Origin: Staphylococcus debuckii
GTDB lineage: Bacteria; Bacillota; Bacilli; Staphylococcales; Staphylococcaceae
Reading direction: 5' to 3'
NCBI RefSeq assembly: GCF_003718735.1
Contig: NZ_CP033460.1
Span: forward strand, 1,054,001 to 1,118,000
DNA: 64,000 bases
Shown: positions 38,288 through 47,314 of the stretch, piece by piece
Layout of the letters: each line of letters opens with the position of its first letter
Position numbering within the stretch: the stretch's first letter is position 1
The notes under the pieces: model-generated
The model's input: only the letters and a program-made list of their open reading frames with translations
Databases searched by the model: none
What the model was told of the DNA's origin: nothing
Position numbers and translations under genes: made by a program

Positions 38288-38617
38288 ATGAGTAACAAAG
38301 AAGAAAATATGATGATTGGTTTCACGATTGTTGCAATAGCAGGAGATGCACGTCGTGAGGTAATGGGAGCTTTAGCAGCAGCTAAAGACAACGACTTTGA
38401 ACAAGCACGCCAACATATTGTAGAAGCCAATAATTTTATCACTGAAGCTCACAAAGAACAAACACAAATGTTAGCTAAAGAAGCCGCGGGAGAAGCATCT
38501 GATATTAGTTTTATCATGGTACATGGTCAAGACCATTTGATGACAACAATGGCTTTACGTGATGCAGCAAATTATATGATCGATCTTTATGAACAACTCC
38601 ATGATTTAAAACACTAA
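38288..38617 (+). CDS. lacF: PTS lactose-specific EIIA component
   Basis: 109 residues, all helical, of the lactose/cellobiose IIA family. It accepts phosphate from HPr on the histidine in FIMVHGQDHLMTT (H79) and passes it to the IIB domain of LacE. GAGGGGG lies 7 bases before the ATG. lacE starts 15 bases downstream. Being in front of lacE and lacG makes the lactose specificity more likely than cellobiose. Confidence 0.94.
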   Translation: MSNKEENMMIGFTIVAIAGDARREVMGALAAAKDNDFEQARQHIVEANNFITEAHKEQTQMLAKEAAGEASDISFIMVHGQDHLMTTMALRDAANYMIDLYEQLHDLKH

Positions 38618-38632
38618 TGAGTAGGTGACAGC

Positions 38633-40327
38633 ATGAATAAAATAATCAAAATGATCGAAAAAATGAAACCATTTTTTGAAAAAATTGCATCTAACCCTTA
38701 CTTAGCAGCAATCCGTGATGGTTTCGTAGCATTAATGCCCGTCGTACTTTTTTCATCTTTATTTATCCTAGTAGCATATGTACCAAACGTTTGGGGCTTC
38801 CATTGGCCTAAAAATATTGAAGATATCATTATGAAAGTTTACAACTTCACAATGGGTATGTTAGCTGTCTTCATGGCTGGTACGGTTACTAAATCTTTAA
38901 CAGATAATCGAAATTTAAAATTACCGAAAACTAACCAAATCAATGTGATATCAACTTTCGTTGCAGCAGAATCATCATTACTGATCTTAGCTGTTAAGCC
39001 TATTAAAGATGGTATCAATATTGAATTATTAGGTACTAAAGGATTAATCGCAGCATTCTTAGTAGCATTTATCGTACCTAATATCTATAAATTCTGCATC
39101 GGCAGAAATATCACAATTAAAATGCCGCCTCAAGTTCCAGGCAACATCGCTCAAGCATTTAAAGATATGATTCCGTTTGCATTCTCAGTAACATTCTTCT
39201 GGATTGTAGACATCGTTGTAAGAGCTTTATCTAAAGGTAACACAGCAGAATTAGTTACTAACTTGTTATCTCCATTATTCAGAGCAGCTAACGGATATTT
39301 AGGATTTGCTATTATCTTTGGTTTCATGGCATTCTTCTGGTTTATCGGAGTACATGGACCATCAGTTGTAGGACCAGCTGTTATTGCGATTATGTACAAT
39401 AACCAAGTTGAAAACTTGCGTTTATTCAGAGCAGGAGAACATGCTCATTATGCATTGACTCAGTCTACTCAAGATTTTGTAGCGCTAATTGGTGGTACAG
39501 GGGCAACATTACTTGTGCCTTACATGTTTATGCTGCTATGTAAATCCCCAGAACTAAAAGCCGTAGGTAAAGCATCGTTTATTCCGACAACCTTTGCAGT
39601 AAATGAACCGTTATTATTCGGTGCGCCTATTATCTTGAACCCAGTATTTATGATTCCATTCATTATCACTCCGATTTTAAACTCATGGGTTTTAAAATTC
39701 TTTGTTGATAATTTAGGAATGAACGGCTTTATGCATTTCTTACCATGGCCAACTCCAGGTCCAATTGGTATTTACATGGCTTCTAACTTCTCGACATTAT
39801 CATTATTATTAATTGCAATTATTTTAGTATTAGACTTCTCAATCTGGTTCCCATTTGTCAAAGCTTACGACAAATTGAAAGTAGATGAAGAACGTGAACT
39901 TGAATTAGCTAAAGCTAATGATGTAGCAACTGCTGCGGCAGGCGGTGCTACGACAACAGCTCCAGTAGAAGTAGAAGAAAATACACCAGATTTCAACTCT
40001 CGTGAACATACGAATGTTTTAGTAGTATGTGCAGGCGGTGGTACAAGCGGTATTTTAGCGAATAGCTTAAATAAATATGCGAAAGAAAATGATATTTCAT
40101 TAGAAGCAACAGCACGTGCTTATGGACAAGATATGGATTTAATTAAAGATATGGACATTGTTATCTTAGCGCCTCAAATGGACGCGATGAAAGATGAAAT
40201 GAGAAAATTCACTGATCAATATGGTGCTGTATTAGTACCGACAACTGGTAAACAATACATTGGCTTGACTCGAGATGGAGAAGGCGCAATGAAATTGATT
40301 TTTGAAAAAATTAACGAAAATAAATAA
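38633..40327 (+). CDS. lacE: PTS lactose-specific EIICB component
   Basis: 564 residues. The N-terminal IIC domain (about 1-420) has some ten membrane segments and transports lactose. An Ala/Thr/Val-rich linker (about 425-450) leads to the cytoplasmic IIB domain, in which C466 in LVVCAGGGTSGILAN carries the phosphate given to the sugar, yielding lactose-6-phosphate. The size matches staphylococcal LacE. The codon use is strongly biased, suggesting high expression. It is separated from lacG by a 143-base gap with a long stem-loop. Confidence 0.95.
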   Translation: MNKIIKMIEKMKPFFEKIASNPYLAAIRDGFVALMPVVLFSSLFILVAYVPNVWGFHWPKNIEDIIMKVYNFTMGMLAVFMAGTVTKSLTDNRNLKLPKTNQINVISTFVAAESSLLILAVKPIKDGINIELLGTKGLIAAFLVAFIVPNIYKFCIGRNITIKMPPQVPGNIAQAFKDMIPFAFSVTFFWIVDIVVRALSKGNTAELVTNLLSPLFRAANGYLGFAIIFGFMAFFWFIGVHGPSVVGPAVIAIMYNNQVENLRLFRAGEHAHYALTQSTQDFVALIGGTGATLLVPYMFMLLCKSPELKAVGKASFIPTTFAVNEPLLFGAPIILNPVFMIPFIITPILNSWVLKFFVDNLGMNGFMHFLPWPTPGPIGIYMASNFSTLSLLLIAIILVLDFSIWFPFVKAYDKLKVDEERELELAKANDVATAAAGGATTTAPVEVEENTPDFNSREHTNVLVVCAGGGTSGILANSLNKYAKENDISLEATARAYGQDMDLIKDMDIVILAPQMDAMKDEMRKFTDQYGAVLVPTTGKQYIGLTRDGEGAMKLIFEKINENK

Positions 40328-40343
40328 ACTTTAATTTAAGTCA

Positions 40344-40421
40344 ATACACAACTGCCCCTTGTTGCATTCCACACGACAGCACGAATCAACATAAGCGGCA
40401 AGGGGCTCCATTTGTGTGTAT
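40344..40421 (+). other. Intercistronic stem-loop between lacE and lacG
   Basis: ATACACAA-x-TGCCCCTTG-x-GC at the left and GC-x-GCAAGGGGC...TTGTGTGTAT at the right form a long, interrupted stem with GCCCCTTG/CAAGGGGC as the core. No T-tract follows, so it is more likely an mRNA-processing or stability element than a terminator. Confidence 0.7.
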
Positions 40422-40470
40422 AAGTAAAGTAATAATATTGAAGATTTTAATTCATTAAAAAGGAGCGCTA

Positions 40471-41880
40471 ATGATGAGTAAATTACCTAAAGACTTTGTG
40501 TTAGGTGCTGCAACTGCTGCATATCAAGTTGAAGGTTCTAGTACTGTTGATGGTAAAGGACGTATTTTGTGGGATGGATTTTTAGAAAAACAAGGACGTT
40601 TTTCTCCTGATCCTGCAAGTGATTTCTACAATCGTTACGAAGAAGATATTCGCTTAGCTTCAGAATACGGCATTAAAGGTATCCGAATTTCAATTGCTTG
40701 GTCAAGAATTATTCCTGATGGTACAGGCGAAATTAATCCTAAAGGTATCGAATATTACAGAAATGTATTTGAAACTTGTCACAAGTATGGCGTTGAACCA
40801 TACGTTACATTGCATCATTTCGATACACCAGAACCACTTTTTGAAAAAGGAGATTGGTTGAATAAAGAACAGTTGGATGCATTTGAACGCTTTGCTGAAC
40901 TTGTATTCGATGAATATCATGATATTGTTACACATTGGATGACAATCAACGAACCGATTGCATATGTTCAAGGTCAATATATTACAGGTGCCTTCCCTCC
41001 AGGTGAACAATACAACACATTAAAATGTCTTCAAGCTCAACATAATCAAATCGTTGCACATAGTCGTGTTGTGAATTTATTTAAATCTAAAGGATACGAA
41101 GGAGAAATTGGTTTAATTCACGCGTTAACTCAATTCTACAGTATTGATAATCAACCATTAAATCAAATTACTGCCTATAAACACGATATCTTTATGAACG
41201 GATTTATGTTAGATGGTACTTTCTTAGGTTATTACACTCCGGAAAAATTAACAGTGGTACGAGAAATTTTAGGTGAAGAATTTGCAGAATTAGATATCCG
41301 CGAAGAAGAATTAGAGGAAATGCGTAAAGCAGCATCTCAACTTGATTTCTTAGGTATCAACTATTATCAAAGTAACTGGATTAAATATCATAACCAAGAT
41401 AGCTACATTCATCATAATGGTACAGGCGAAAAAGGAACTTCAGTCTTCCGCGTTAAAGGTATCGGAGAAGTCGTTAAAAATGAAGCAATTCCTACAAATG
41501 ATTGGGATTGGTATATCTATCCTCAAGGACTATACGATATCATGTCACGCGTTAAAAACGACTATCCGAATTACAAAAAAATCTATGTCACTGAAAATGG
41601 CTTAGGATATAAAGACGTTTTAGAAGAAAATGGCGAAGTCCATGATGAAGAACGTATTGATTATATCCGCCAACATATTGAAGCTATTGAAAAAGCTTAT
41701 GTAGATGGCGTAAATGTCAAAGGCTATTTCGTTTGGTCATTACAAGATATGTTCAGCTGGTCAAATGGTTATAATAAGCGTTATGGTTTATTCTATATTG
41801 ATTTTGAAACTCAAAAACGTTACATCAAAGATAGTGCAAAATGGTACAAAGAACTATCTGAAGATATTTACGGAAAATAA
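40471..41880 (+). CDS. lacG: 6-phospho-beta-galactosidase
   Basis: 469 residues, glycoside hydrolase family 1. It cleaves lactose-6-phosphate to glucose and galactose-6-phosphate. The acid/base E161 lies in WMTINEPIAY and the nucleophile E375 in IYVTENGLGY; the C-terminal SNGYNKRYGLFYIDF contains the phosphate-recognition Ser/Lys/Tyr region typical of phospho-glycosidases. AGGAG precedes two adjacent ATG codons; the second (40474) has the better spacing. It is the last gene of the lacFEG transcript. Confidence 0.95.
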   Translation: MMSKLPKDFVLGAATAAYQVEGSSTVDGKGRILWDGFLEKQGRFSPDPASDFYNRYEEDIRLASEYGIKGIRISIAWSRIIPDGTGEINPKGIEYYRNVFETCHKYGVEPYVTLHHFDTPEPLFEKGDWLNKEQLDAFERFAELVFDEYHDIVTHWMTINEPIAYVQGQYITGAFPPGEQYNTLKCLQAQHNQIVAHSRVVNLFKSKGYEGEIGLIHALTQFYSIDNQPLNQITAYKHDIFMNGFMLDGTFLGYYTPEKLTVVREILGEEFAELDIREEELEEMRKAASQLDFLGINYYQSNWIKYHNQDSYIHHNGTGEKGTSVFRVKGIGEVVKNEAIPTNDWDWYIYPQGLYDIMSRVKNDYPNYKKIYVTENGLGYKDVLEENGEVHDEERIDYIRQHIEAIEKAYVDGVNVKGYFVWSLQDMFSWSNGYNKRYGLFYIDFETQKRYIKDSAKWYKELSEDIYGK

Positions 41881-41944: not shown

Positions 41945-43237
41945 TTAAAATAATAACAGTGTTAAATATAGCCCAATCAATGTTGCAAATAGGACAGGGA
42001 TTGTAATGATTACTCCCGTTTTAAAATAAACGCCCCAAGAAATTTTTAGACCTTTTTGACTTAATACATGTAACCAAAGTAAAGTCGCTAACGATCCGAT
42101 AGGGGTCATCTTAGGACCTAAATCTGCACCGATGACATTGGCATAAATAAGTGCTTCTTTGATTAAGCCATGTGCTGCCGATTGGTTGATTGCTATGGCG
42201 TCGATCATCACAGTGGGTAAATTATTCATAACTGCAGATAAGAAAGCGGAAACAAATCCCATACCCATTATACTTGCAAAGAGTCCATAATGTGTAAAGT
42301 TATCGATAACACCAGCTAATAAGCCAGTAATCCCCGCGTTTTTTAAACCAAAAACTACAAGATACATTCCGATAGAGAAAATAACAATATTCCATGGCGC
42401 ACCTTTTAGCACCTTACGTGTATTAACAGCTGGCGAGGTTTTTGCTAAACCAAGAAAAATAAGGGCAATCATTCCAGCGATTAATGAAACTGGTATTCCA
42501 AAGAATTCACTTACAAAATAGCCTATTAATAAAAACGAAATAACTATCCACGAAATTTTAAAAAGGCGCGGATCTTTAATGGCCTTCTGTGGAGGATCTA
42601 ATTTTGAAACATCCACCTGTTTAGGAATACTTTTTCTGAAATAAAGATATAAAATCAAGATACTGGAAAGAAGTGAAAAAATGTTCGGTAAAATCATATG
42701 TAAAAAGTAGTTTGTAAAAGTGATATTGAAATAATCTGCAGAAACAATGTTTACCAAGTTACTCACAATTAAAGGTAACGAAGTTGTGTCGGCCACAAAT
42801 CCGCACGCAATTATAAAAGGAAAGATGAATTTCTTATTAAAATTAAGGTGTCTGACCATTGCTAGCACAATAGGGGTAAGTATTAATGCTGCGCCATCAT
42901 TTGCAAATAGGGCAGCAATAAGAGCACCTAATAGTATGATATAGATAAACATACGGTTGCCGCTTCCTTTAGCAGCATGAACCATGTGTATAGCAGCCCA
43001 TTCAAAGAAACCAATGTTATCTAGGATGAGTGAAATGATAATCAAGGCTACAAATGTCAGCGTAGCATTCCAGACAATTTGAGCTACTTCTCCTGCATCA
43101 TGTAGAGAAACTACCCCTGTAAGAAGTGCTAACAAAGCGCCTATGGATGCTGTAATACCTATATCTAAACCTTTCGGCTGCCAGATAATGAAAATAAGTG
43201 TTAAGAGAAAAATAATAATTGCGATAATAGCCATCAT
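41945..43237 (-). CDS. arsB: ArsB arsenite/antimonite efflux permease
   Basis: 430 residues, about 12 membrane segments. It closely matches plasmid-type staphylococcal ArsB throughout, for example [50 protein letters not shown] and [16 protein letters not shown]. The family exports arsenite alone or with ArsA. No arsR or arsC is nearby. It lies between the convergent lacG and the end of lacD, inside the lactose cluster. AAGGA lies 5 or 8 bases before two adjacent ATG codons. Function in arsenite export is inferred; the regulation is unclear. Confidence 0.9.
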
Positions 43238-43430: not shown

Positions 43431-44366
43431 TTATTTAACAGGTGTAGCAGTTTCATCTAATACTTTATTTAAACCTTCGATATTTGCTTTACCTTCAGTA
43501 CGGAACCATTCTTGAACAGCTGCATCGCCTTCAGCAAAGTGATCAGTAGCGCCTCTCCAAGTTGCACGGCCGCAAAGTACACCATTAAATGTAGAACCAG
43601 CTTCTTTAGCGAAGTATAATGTTTTTTGGAATAAATCTGCAGATACTCCAGCACTTAAATAGATATAAGGTAAGTTTGTTGAAGCGGCTTGTTCTTTGAA
43701 AGCTTGAGCAGCTTCTTCTTTAGTGAATAATGCTTTTTCACCAAATCCTTCAACATAGTTCATATTTACAGGTACTTCAACTTTTAATACATCTACATTG
43801 AAACGAGGTTCAGAATATTTTTTCATAGCTTCATTTACTTTATGTGCTTTAACTTTTGCGAATTCTTCAGAACCGCTGTCAGAGTTGTTCGCATCATATG
43901 ATACTAATTCTAAGAAAAGAGGTAGACCTTCAGCTACACATTCGCTGCCTACGCGTTCAACAAAAGCTTCTTTTTGATCATTGATAGCTTTGTCTTCGTC
44001 AATATCTACGTATACTAATAATTTAACAGCATCTGCGCCAGCTTCTTTTAAGCGTTTCACAGACCATACATTTAATAAATCAGGAAGACGTCCTGGTTCA
44101 GATGCATCATAACCAGTTTTTTCGTAAGCAAGTAATAAACCAGCGTTTTTAGCACGAACTTTAGTAGCTGGTAAGCCGTATTCAGGGTCAAGTAAGATAC
44201 TTGAAGCATAAGGAGTTAATTCTTCAGAAACATGAACTTTAAATTGTTCTAAGTCTTCAGTTTTAGCATCTTCACCTAATAAGCGTTTTAATGCTCCACG
44301 TTGGTCGATTGCTAATGCAGCAATGTAATTTTTGTCATTTAATAAAGGTTTGATGGATTTTGTCAT
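43431..44366 (-). CDS. lacD: Tagatose-1,6-bisphosphate aldolase
   Basis: 311 residues, a class I aldolase of the LacD family, splitting tagatose-1,6-bisphosphate to dihydroxyacetone phosphate and glyceraldehyde-3-phosphate. The blocks [30 protein letters not shown] (with the Schiff-base region Lys), [10 protein letters not shown] and [15 protein letters not shown] are typical. It overlaps lacC by 4 bases and ends at a terminator. Confidence 0.94.
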
Positions 44367-45310
44367 GAGGTTTTTGCCACCTTTTCAATAATTATTTGAT
44401 TACTAAATTTATTAAAATTATCTAAATCTACATGTCCAGTTCTTGCTTCTAATGCGTTCGACATTCCGGCAGCCATTGCAAATTTCGCCGCTGATTCAAA
44501 GCTTTCATTTTTAGAAAGACCATAACTGAAGCCGGCTAAACTGCTATCACCTGAACCTACGGGATTAACGGCAACGATTTTAGGAATATCAATATTGTAT
44601 ACTTCTTCTTTGATACGTAATAATGCACCATTCTTACCTAATGATAATAAAATGTAAGGAATATGAGCCAAGCTCTCATCTAATAATTGATTAGCTAAAT
44701 CAATAGAATCTGAACTTGTGATTGCATTGATTTCTTCATCATTTGGTTTAATCAGAAGGGGAGGGCAATGGTTTGAATGCGTTACTGTATAATTCAATAC
44801 TTGTCCAGAAGTATCTAGACATACAGGAATATCTTGAGTATGCGCTATTTCCAGTAACTTGACGTAATAGTCCTCAGGGAAACCTTTTGGCAGACTACCG
44901 GAAATAGTGACCAAATTATAGTTAGATACTATAGTATTAAAGTGTTCTAAAAATCTTGTTTGAATTTCTTCAGGCTGCAATGCACCGCTTTCTAAAATTT
45001 CAGTTTGACTGCCTTCGCTGTTGATAGCAATACAAAGTCTAGTAGAAGCGGGGGAAACAGTGAAATCATGATTGATATGTGTTTCATCCAAATTATGTGT
45101 AAGCCACTCACCGAATTTGCCGCCGATAATACCTGTACATGTAACAGACAGACCTAATTCGGCAGCTACACGTGCGACATTAATTCCTTTGCCGCCAGCT
45201 GATTTATAATCTTCGGTAGCTCGTTGTACAGTGTTAATCTCGAAATCCTTTATTGGATAGTTGATGTCGATTGCAGGATTTAATGTAACAGTTAATAATT
45301 TGAAAGTCAT
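44363..45310 (-). CDS. lacC: Tagatose-6-phosphate kinase
   Basis: 315 residues of the PfkB sugar-kinase family, making tagatose-1,6-bisphosphate with ATP. The N-terminal signature [16 protein letters not shown] and the C-terminal catalytic [16 protein letters not shown] (with the base Asp) are intact. Among PfkB kinases, fructose-1-phosphate kinase is similar, but the lacB–lacC–lacD context settles it. The ATG is overlapped by the lacB stop (TAATG). Confidence 0.94.
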
Positions 45311-45825
45311 TAGTCGTGATATTCTCCGTTATCCCATTTATTCAAATACTCATCAAACATTTTATGAGAATAATGTACGTCTTCTGGTTTTAAGCTTTCA
45401 TCCATTACTTTAATAAGCGCTTCTTTTTCAGGTGTTGGTTCGTATTTTGTTTCAGCAAATGTGTCTACAATGTTTTTAATAAGATCTACACCAGTTACCA
45501 TACCGCCTGCAGCAATAATGTTGCAGTTATATTCACTTTTAGCTAAACGAGCGCTTGTTGCATCACGTACAAGGGCAACACGAGTTCCAGGTACTTTATC
45601 AGCACTAGCTGAGATACCTACGCCAGTACCGCACAATGCAACACCGAAGTCTACGTCTCCGTTAGCAACAAGTTCGCCGATACGAGTACCGTAAATAGGG
45701 TAGTGTGTACGGACGTAGTCGTAAGTACCAACGTCAATGACTTCGTGTCCGTTATTTTTTAAATAAGTAGCAACTTCTGCTTTAATATTAGTAACAATAT
45801 GGTCACAACCAATAGCTATTTTCAT
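45310..45825 (-). CDS. lacB: Galactose-6-phosphate isomerase subunit LacB
   Basis: 171 residues of the RpiB/LacAB family. LacA and LacB form the heteromeric isomerase converting galactose-6-phosphate to tagatose-6-phosphate. KIAIGCDHIVTNIK, ALCGTGVGISASADKVPGTRVALVRD and the CNIIAAGGMVTG motif are visible; the Cys in LCGTG is the catalytic base in RpiB relatives. GGAGG lies before the ATG. It starts 18 bases after lacA. Confidence 0.95.
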   Translation of the reverse strand: MKIAIGCDHIVTNIKAEVATYLKNNGHEVIDVGTYDYVRTHYPIYGTRIGELVANGDVDFGVALCGTGVGISASADKVPGTRVALVRDATSARLAKSEYNCNIIAAGGMVTGVDLIKNIVDTFAETKYEPTPEKEALIKVMDESLKPEDVHYSHKMFDEYLNKWDNGEYHD

Positions 45826-45843: not shown

Positions 45844-46275
45844 TTAACATAAAGAATTTAACATATCAATTCTGATTTGGTGGCGTCCAGCGTCATATCC
45901 AGCTTTTAAGAATGCTTTCACACAGTTTAAGGCATTTAATTTGCCGACAACTTCGCTGCCTAAAACGATAACGTTTGTATTATTGTGTCTATGCGTCATT
46001 TTTGCTGATTGTTCATCTGAAACAGTAGCTGCAATAATGTTCTTTTGTTTATTAGCAAGAATAAACGGAGCGATACCGTACTTATCAATAATAATTGCCT
46101 TTGTACCTTCATGTTCTTGAACATATCGAGTGACCTCAAAAGTAATTTCATCAATTGTTTCTGCTGAACTATTTGCTGATAAATCCTCGATTTCGTAATC
46201 TGCATCAGCTAGTGATTTTAAAATAAAATCTTTTAACTCTTGTGATTGTGCATCACTATGAATAACAATAGATAT
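45844..46275 (-). CDS. lacA: Galactose-6-phosphate isomerase subunit LacA, apparent ATA start
   Basis: About 143 residues, the partner of LacB. AIIIDKYGIAPFILANKQKNIIAATVSDEQSAKMTHRHNN in pieces, and AGYDAGRHQIRIDMLN, match LacA. The expected N terminus M-A-I-I-I-G-S-D corresponds to I-S-I-V-I-H-S-D, and the first codon there is ATA at 46275-46273, with AGTAGGA ending 6 bases before it. The frame is open to a GTG at 46329, but that codon lies before the transcription start predicted from the strong promoter at 46321-46349, and it has no ribosome-binding site. So the start is probably the non-standard ATA, or the gene is impaired, or the base is a sequencing error. Confidence 0.85.
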   Translation of the reverse strand: MSIVIHSDAQSQELKDFILKSLADADYEIEDLSANSSAETIDEITFEVTRYVQEHEGTKAIIIDKYGIAPFILANKQKNIIAATVSDEQSAKMTHRHNNTNVIVLGSEVVGKLNALNCVKAFLKAGYDAGRHQIRIDMLNSLC

Positions 46276-46287
46276 AGTAAATCCTAC

Positions 46288-46312
46288 TGTTCGAAAATGT
46301 TTGATTTTGTTC
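46288..46312 (-). promoter_or_regulatory. Candidate lac operator (lacA copy)
   Basis: On the minus strand GAACAAAA, TCA, AACATT, TT, CGAACA; 21 of 25 bases identical to the element downstream of the lacF promoter. It begins about 2 bases after the predicted transcription start, as the lacF copy does. Confidence 0.65.
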
Positions 46313-46320
46313 TCATTTAG

Positions 46321-46349
46321 AATATACACTCTGCTATGAAATCTGTCAA
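46321..46349 (-). promoter_or_regulatory. lacABCD promoter, near consensus
   Basis: On the minus strand TTGACA, 17-base spacer, TATATT. The predicted start is about 46313-46315. Confidence 0.8.
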
Positions 46350-46433: not shown

Positions 46434-46461
46434 TAAAAAATACGCACATCAAAATGTGCGT
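46434..46461 (-). terminator. Terminator after lacR
   Basis: A perfect 8-bp stem ACGCACAT / ATGTGCGT with a 4-base loop, followed on the minus strand by TTTTTT. It separates lacR from lacABCD. Confidence 0.85.
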
Positions 46462-46478: not shown

Positions 46479-47231
46479 TTATATAATTTTTGTGAGGTTA
46501 CTGTAATAATTTTTTACTTTATGGGATACTTCGTTATCTGTAATAATTGCAGTCAAATCTTTGATTTTGTAAAAAGGCGTGAAAGCTCTTGTATTGAATT
46601 TCGAGCTGTCAGAAACCAGATACTTTTCCGTTGAGTGGTTTAAAATGAGTTCATTTACATTTCCTTCTTCTTCATTAGCTGTTGTAGCTTCATCGTCTAT
46701 AATGCCATTGACACCGATAAATGCTTTATCGATATGAACTTGTTTCAACATCGTGTTAGCTAGTTGCCCAATAAACGATCCAGTTTTCTTTCTGTAGCGA
46801 CCGCCTATTAAAACCACATCCATATGCTTTATATCTTTATACTGCTCAAAGATATAAAGAGAATTCGTAATGATATGCAGCTTTAATTCTTTAATAAAAG
46901 GAAATATCGCTTCGTTGGTAGTTCCTGAACCGATAAATACAGTATCATCATCGTGAATTAAGCGACCTGCTTTTTCAGCAATAACGCGTTTGTTCTCACT
47001 GTTCAATTGTTGTTTTTCTTCGTTTGCCAATTCATCGTAAAACGTAGATTTTTCCACAGCTCCACCATGTACACGAACTAATAATGCTTTTTGTTCTAGT
47101 TCCTTTAAATCTCTACGAATCGTCATGGGAACTACTTGCATTTCTTCTGATAATTTTTTTACTGATACACTTTTGGATTGTTTTAATTTATTGAGGATAA
47201 ATTGGTGGCGTTCTTCTTTTAAATTCATCAT
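46479..47231 (-). CDS. DeoR-family regulator, probable LacR
   Basis: 250 residues. The N-terminal DeoR helix-turn-helix spans about 5-55 (VSVKKLSEEMQVVPMTIRRDLKELEQKALLVRVHGGAV); the C-terminal sugar-phosphate domain holds IGSGTTNEAIFPFI, IITNSLYIFEQY and FIGVNGI. Similarity to S. aureus LacR seems only moderate to my eye, so I do not assign the symbol. LacR represses lac genes until tagatose-6-phosphate accumulates. The location directly before lacABCD supports that role. The first of two ATG codons at 47231 has AGG 8 bases upstream. Confidence 0.85.
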   Translation of the reverse strand: MMNLKEERHQFILNKLKQSKSVSVKKLSEEMQVVPMTIRRDLKELEQKALLVRVHGGAVEKSTFYDELANEEKQQLNSENKRVIAEKAGRLIHDDDTVFIGSGTTNEAIFPFIKELKLHIITNSLYIFEQYKDIKHMDVVLIGGRYRKKTGSFIGQLANTMLKQVHIDKAFIGVNGIIDDEATTANEEEGNVNELILNHSTEKYLVSDSSKFNTRAFTPFYKIKDLTAIITDNEVSHKVKNYYSNLTKII

Positions 47232-47314
47232 TTTCACAACCTACATCTTTATTTCTTAATTTATGGTTATTATAGCATATAGAATTATACTGCTCTTATT
47301 AGAATTCTAAATTA

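Follow-up and report, generated by a model that had tools for sequence, protein, structure and literature searches.

Replacement of the lacA start codon by ATA in Staphylococcus debuckii: a probable recent start-loss allele

Start-loss pseudogenes are a known class in sugar operons. Initiation at AUA has been reported in Staphylococcus aureus, where infC, ccpN and citZ start at this codon, in the case of citZ only in the NCTC 8325 lineage (PMC13009471). Reporters with AUA starts in S. aureus reached about 10% of the AUG level in poor medium, and that of ccpN rose to as much as 30% when the medium was rich (PMC13009471). The same source reports an extended Shine-Dalgarno (SD) sequence for infC, ccpN and cvfC1, the last of which has an AUU start. 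The galactose-6-phosphate isomerase of L. rhamnosus is described as having its active site between the LacA and LacB subunits, and the two subunits were inactive when expressed separately (PMC3755991).

The locus compared here with these systems lies in a 64,000 nt stretch of the Staphylococcus debuckii chromosome (NZ_CP033460.1, positions 1,054,001 to 1,118,000), referred to as the window, and coordinates are given as positions within it. The S. debuckii genome is one closed contig of 2,691,850 bases. Five lac genes are found on the minus strand of the window. These are lacR, encoding a DeoR-family regulator (46479..47237, drawn from GTG), the lacA body, encoding the galactose-6-phosphate isomerase subunit LacA (45844..46275, 143 codons and a stop, counted from ATA), the adjoining lacB for the partner subunit (45310..45825), which has a strong SD of its own with a predicted pairing of -10.2 kcal/mol, lacC (44363..45310) and lacD (43431..44366), the latter two with intact frames and named by position and similarity. 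Nearby on the plus strand are the intact frames of lacF (38288-38617), lacE (38633-40327) and lacG (40471-41880). From their sequence and from general knowledge, we take this plus-strand group (38288..41880) to be the lactose transport and phospho-beta-galactosidase genes. All of the lac genes other than lacA have open frames in the genome. The GTG from which lacR is drawn is a stop codon in simulans-clade relatives, so that lacR probably begins at one of the ATG codons that closely follow it.

On the minus strand, the lacA start region has the order TTGACA (46349-46344), 17 bases, TATATT (46326-46321), ...CGAACAGTAGGATTTACT, ATA, TCTATTGTTATTCATAGTGAT. Direct reading and alignment place ATA (46273..46275) where the relatives have their ATG start, as an earlier sequence-only reading of this DNA had claimed. 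That reading had given the N-terminus of relatives as M-A-I-I-I-G-S-D, which the alignment corrects to M-S-I-V-I-H-S-D in the close relatives. LacA from the nearest relative (G049) has the same residue in 143 of 144 codons, stop included, and the sole difference is the first codon. Reading through the frame also bore out that GTG at 46329 is the only in-frame standard start upstream. The frame beginning at this GTG runs uninterrupted for 161 codons and contains no further ATG, GTG or TTG ahead of the conserved body; the next in-frame standard start is an ATG deep inside that body, at its codon 93.

A total of 98 lacA-family loci were compared, 30 from a genus search with matches in 75 of 84 genomes and 68 from a search of a species collection. 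These are best matches of the family and comprise 90 distinct sequences, some being the same record twice. In 97 of them a standard start (92 ATG, 3 GTG and 2 TTG) occurs no more than 8 codons from the aligned position; the S. debuckii locus is the one that has none, so the AUA is not conserved across species. In the comparison with related genomes, ATG was present in all seven carnosus/simulans genomes and ATA only here. The start region is GGAGGATTTA-TATGTCTATT in those seven genomes and GTAGGATTTACTATATCTATT in S. debuckii. Since all seven keep both ATG and GGAGGA, the changes from ATG to ATA and from GGAGGA to GTAGGA are both derived in the S. debuckii lineage. On these comparisons, S. debuckii lacA is a case of real, derived start loss.

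The altered SD is AGTAGGA (46282..46288, minus strand), which ends 6 bases 5' of ATA as had been stated, and which is AGGAGGA in the relatives, the changed base being 46286. Its predicted pairing with the 16S rRNA 3' end, the pairing sequence of which was confirmed six times in the S. debuckii genome, is -5.1 kcal/mol as opposed to -12.0 in the carnosus/simulans relatives (GGAGGA to GTAGGA). Taken by itself, the SD change may be harmless, because the lacA of S. auricularis has GTAGG with an ATG start and likewise a predicted pairing of -5.1, and because lacR (-4.5 kcal/mol) and the gene at 41945-43237 (-5.7) also score weakly in S. debuckii; the value for lacC is -6.6. The stretch AAACATTTTCGAACAGTAGG in the S. 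auricularis lacA leader (L034 2481-2500) is common to both species, and the conserved CATTTTCGAACA within the leaders may be an operator. A hairpin hiding the SD by the pairing AACAGUAGG was considered and rejected, as its fold of -6.9 (z -0.57) does not stand out from those of shuffled sequences; folds at the same site in four relatives are -9.3, -7.2, -7.2 and -7.9. A longer stretch of the leader folds at -12.2 in S. debuckii and at -10.0 in G049.

The near-consensus promoter described in the sequence-only reading, TTGACA-17-TATATT (46321..46349, minus strand), is predicted with a score of 11 out of 12 in a loose scan for which 3.1 sites were expected by chance and 3 were found in the region, but it is identical in all seven carnosus/simulans-clade relatives searched. 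From the position of this promoter, the lacA transcript should begin near 46315-46313.

The explanation that we consider probable is that S. debuckii lacA lost its start recently and that this allele yields little LacA or none. The change of ATG to ATA, together with that of GGAGGA to GTAGGA, would leave the lacA transcript without a standard start before the body, and translation would fall to the point where little or no LacA is made. LacB, LacC and LacD, having kept their own frames and starts, would probably still be produced, and the expected phenotype would be weak or lost use of lactose and galactose. A silent mutant was one of three possibilities raised by the sequence-only reading, beside a weak ATA start that limits LacA against LacB and a misread base. 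The start loss in that proposal is upheld by the ATG and GGAGGA of the seven relatives, while the absence of LacA itself is favoured rather than established.

Signs of decay come from a 93-residue database protein, P0005, which represents a cluster of 4 sequences on 5 contigs. P0005 opens with 13 residues of the +1 frame of S. debuckii lacA and, one residue later, continues with the final 79 residues in frame. Those first 13 residues all fit the S. debuckii genome, whereas the seven relatives fit 8, 7, 7, 4, 4, 1 and 1 of them. Judged by this fit, P0005 appears to be a frameshifted lacA of the S. debuckii lineage or of a near sister. It does not derive from the genome analysed here, because the lacA frame is open there, and no further disabling changes were seen in the lacA of this genome. 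The protein search returned no N-terminal LacA piece of the S. debuckii lineage, the only such pieces being P0010 and P0011 of other species. This absence may be taken as weak support, in that no ATG-started piece was called in the lineage. P0010 is a short LacA N-terminal protein, like G014; P0011 is a 52-residue S. simulans protein that looks like LacA truncated after about 42 residues.

Other lac genes are broken in sister species. In three of the seven carnosus/simulans relatives (L101 G018, L102 G065 and L105 G062), lacD is split over two reading frames as assembled, and the lacF of G065 is likewise split, as assembled. The stretch fetched for G018 is without lacF and the first half of lacE, and that for G062, which contains 10 unknown bases, is without lacE, lacF and the first part of lacG. 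The start loss of S. debuckii lacA would thus fit a clade with repeated lac gene decay. As in start-loss pseudogenes, the lacA body is intact and the initiation codon is lost; unlike them, only the lacA start region is affected in S. debuckii and the remaining lac frames are open. Taken together, the weakened SD, the lack of conservation of the ATA and the P0005 frameshift favour loss over a tuning of LacA relative to LacB.

The main alternative, by analogy with S. aureus a real rival to a near-silent allele, is that AUA is a working weak start used at some percent of the AUG rate, with LacA low but sufficient and this state either tolerated or selected. LacA made from AUA at a few percent is quite possible, because AUA starts work in S. 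aureus and infC has ATA in S. debuckii itself. In S. debuckii (L106) and all five relatives searched (L107-L111), the infC ATA follows GGAGGTG, the start being assigned by analogy with the S. aureus gene (PMC13009471). The lacA gene resembles the AUA-start class, and thus staphylococcal infC and ccpN, in that AUA occupies the position homologous to the start and no standard start is usable (PMC13009471). However, infC and ccpN have a conserved AUA and, like cvfC1, an extended SD, whereas the AUA of lacA is private to one lineage, conserved in no relative, and preceded by a weakened SD (PMC13009471). No extended SD precedes the lacA ATA, the predicted pairing being -5.1 kcal/mol compared with -13.4 for infC in the same genome. 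The nearest case is S. aureus citZ, which like lacA has a lineage-restricted AUA at the gene of a metabolic enzyme in a staphylococcus; citZ initiation was demonstrated by ribosome profiling and reporters, whereas lacA is known from its sequence and its SD is weakened as well (PMC13009471). With the P0005 frameshift also against it, a working AUA start is held here as a tentative alternative. Its more specific form is more doubtful: AUA would be a real start selected to keep LacA scarce and nutrient-dependent, as the ccpN reporters show in S. aureus, the amount of isomerase would change with the growth medium, and an AUA start would function with no extended SD.

The lacA body itself can be read in favour of a gene that still works. 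Polarisation with G014 and G018 assigns 6 synonymous changes and no nonsynonymous one to the S. debuckii branch of lacA, and 2 synonymous and no nonsynonymous ones to the sister branch, 6 sites being ambiguous. Had lacA evolved neutrally along its entire branch, 15 to 22 nonsynonymous changes would be expected; their absence confines any unconstrained period to no more than about 13 to 20% of that branch. The changes on this branch thus give no sign of relaxed constraint on the body, which was under constraint until recently, so that either the loss happened lately or the gene is still functional. All six of the LacA active-site residues listed for the L. rhamnosus structure are present, shifted by one position. 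The top NCBIfam match of lacA is to the LacA family NF006380, at 153.4 bits against a cut-off of 164, and lacA passes the threshold of TIGR00689, the broader RpiB/LacA/LacB subfamily. On its own branch the lacB gene has acquired 6 nonsynonymous and 11 synonymous changes, and several of these affect residues 127-162, close to the helix packing against LacA. The lacB changes were considered as possible co-decay, but with a one-residue offset none of them alters any of the five helix residues of LacB that are listed as contacting LacA, and for this reason they favour neither loss nor function.

It is unlikely that the base at 46273 was misread or differs between strains and that the real or typical genome has ATG there. 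The comparison includes one S. debuckii genome, which leaves room for such a variant, but that genome is a closed single contig, and a misread at 46273 alone leaves the SD change unexplained. P0005 furthermore suggests that lacA has been independently disturbed in the S. debuckii lineage.

Initiation at the upstream GTG (46327..46329, minus strand) from a longer transcript, giving a LacA with an 18-residue extension, is very improbable, although the frame is open and this start would be the automatic gene call. The GTG abuts the -10 box, lying 5' of it in a promoter kept in all seven relatives, and is conserved as promoter DNA. A predicted terminator-like hairpin (46442..46461, minus strand) lies 3' of lacR and ahead of the promoter, where it would reduce the transcription that reaches lacA from lacR. 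Compared with G049, the stretch from GTG to ATA has 4 nonsynonymous changes and no synonymous one, and the lacA body has 0 and 14 (Fisher's exact p = 3e-4), so the extension evolves as non-coding DNA and not as protein. When the 161-residue form was used as the query of a protein search, no protein of this length was retrieved. Both the position of the GTG and this substitution pattern agree with the view of the sequence-only reading that it is not the lacA start. Least credible of all is translation of a speculative 10-codon frame, ATG...TAG (46284..46316, minus strand), whose stop contains the changed SD base and was created by the SD change, followed by restart of ribosomes at the nearby AUA, as it has the positions of these elements in its favour, while its ATG is at or before the predicted 5' end and the relatives give it no support.

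If lacA is a recent start-loss allele as preferred here, the enzyme would be affected as a whole. Like the L. rhamnosus LacAB galactose-6-phosphate isomerase, that of S. debuckii would be a two-subunit enzyme, with the listed active-site residues present in LacA; the L. rhamnosus subunits were co-expressed, whereas expression of S. debuckii LacA is in doubt (PMC3755991). A PF02502 profile search of the S. debuckii genome matched lacA and lacB only, revealing no second LacA copy and so no stand-in for LacA, and there was no match to lacA on plasmid records. Because the active site is at the subunit interface and the lone subunits are inactive, use of lactose and galactose via tagatose-6-phosphate should be lost or weak. 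The genome contains galK, and free galactose may therefore have another route. A lactose phenotype for S. debuckii was not found in the literature searched, and the word lactose does not occur in the searched text of the two S. debuckii papers, PMC11685071 and PMC10666945.

Unless the AUA still works, the start loss of lacA is most likely gene decay of an ordinary kind. If it is a loss, then the first step in the decay of a pathway would have been caught in a milk isolate, S. debuckii SDB 2975 having been isolated from bovine milk (PMC11685071), with the initiation site struck and the body still intact. Automatic annotation would in that case conceal the start loss by placing a false start at the GTG. 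Should the AUA work, lacA would be the second lineage-restricted AUA enzyme gene in the staphylococci, and it would test whether AUA starts need an extended SD.
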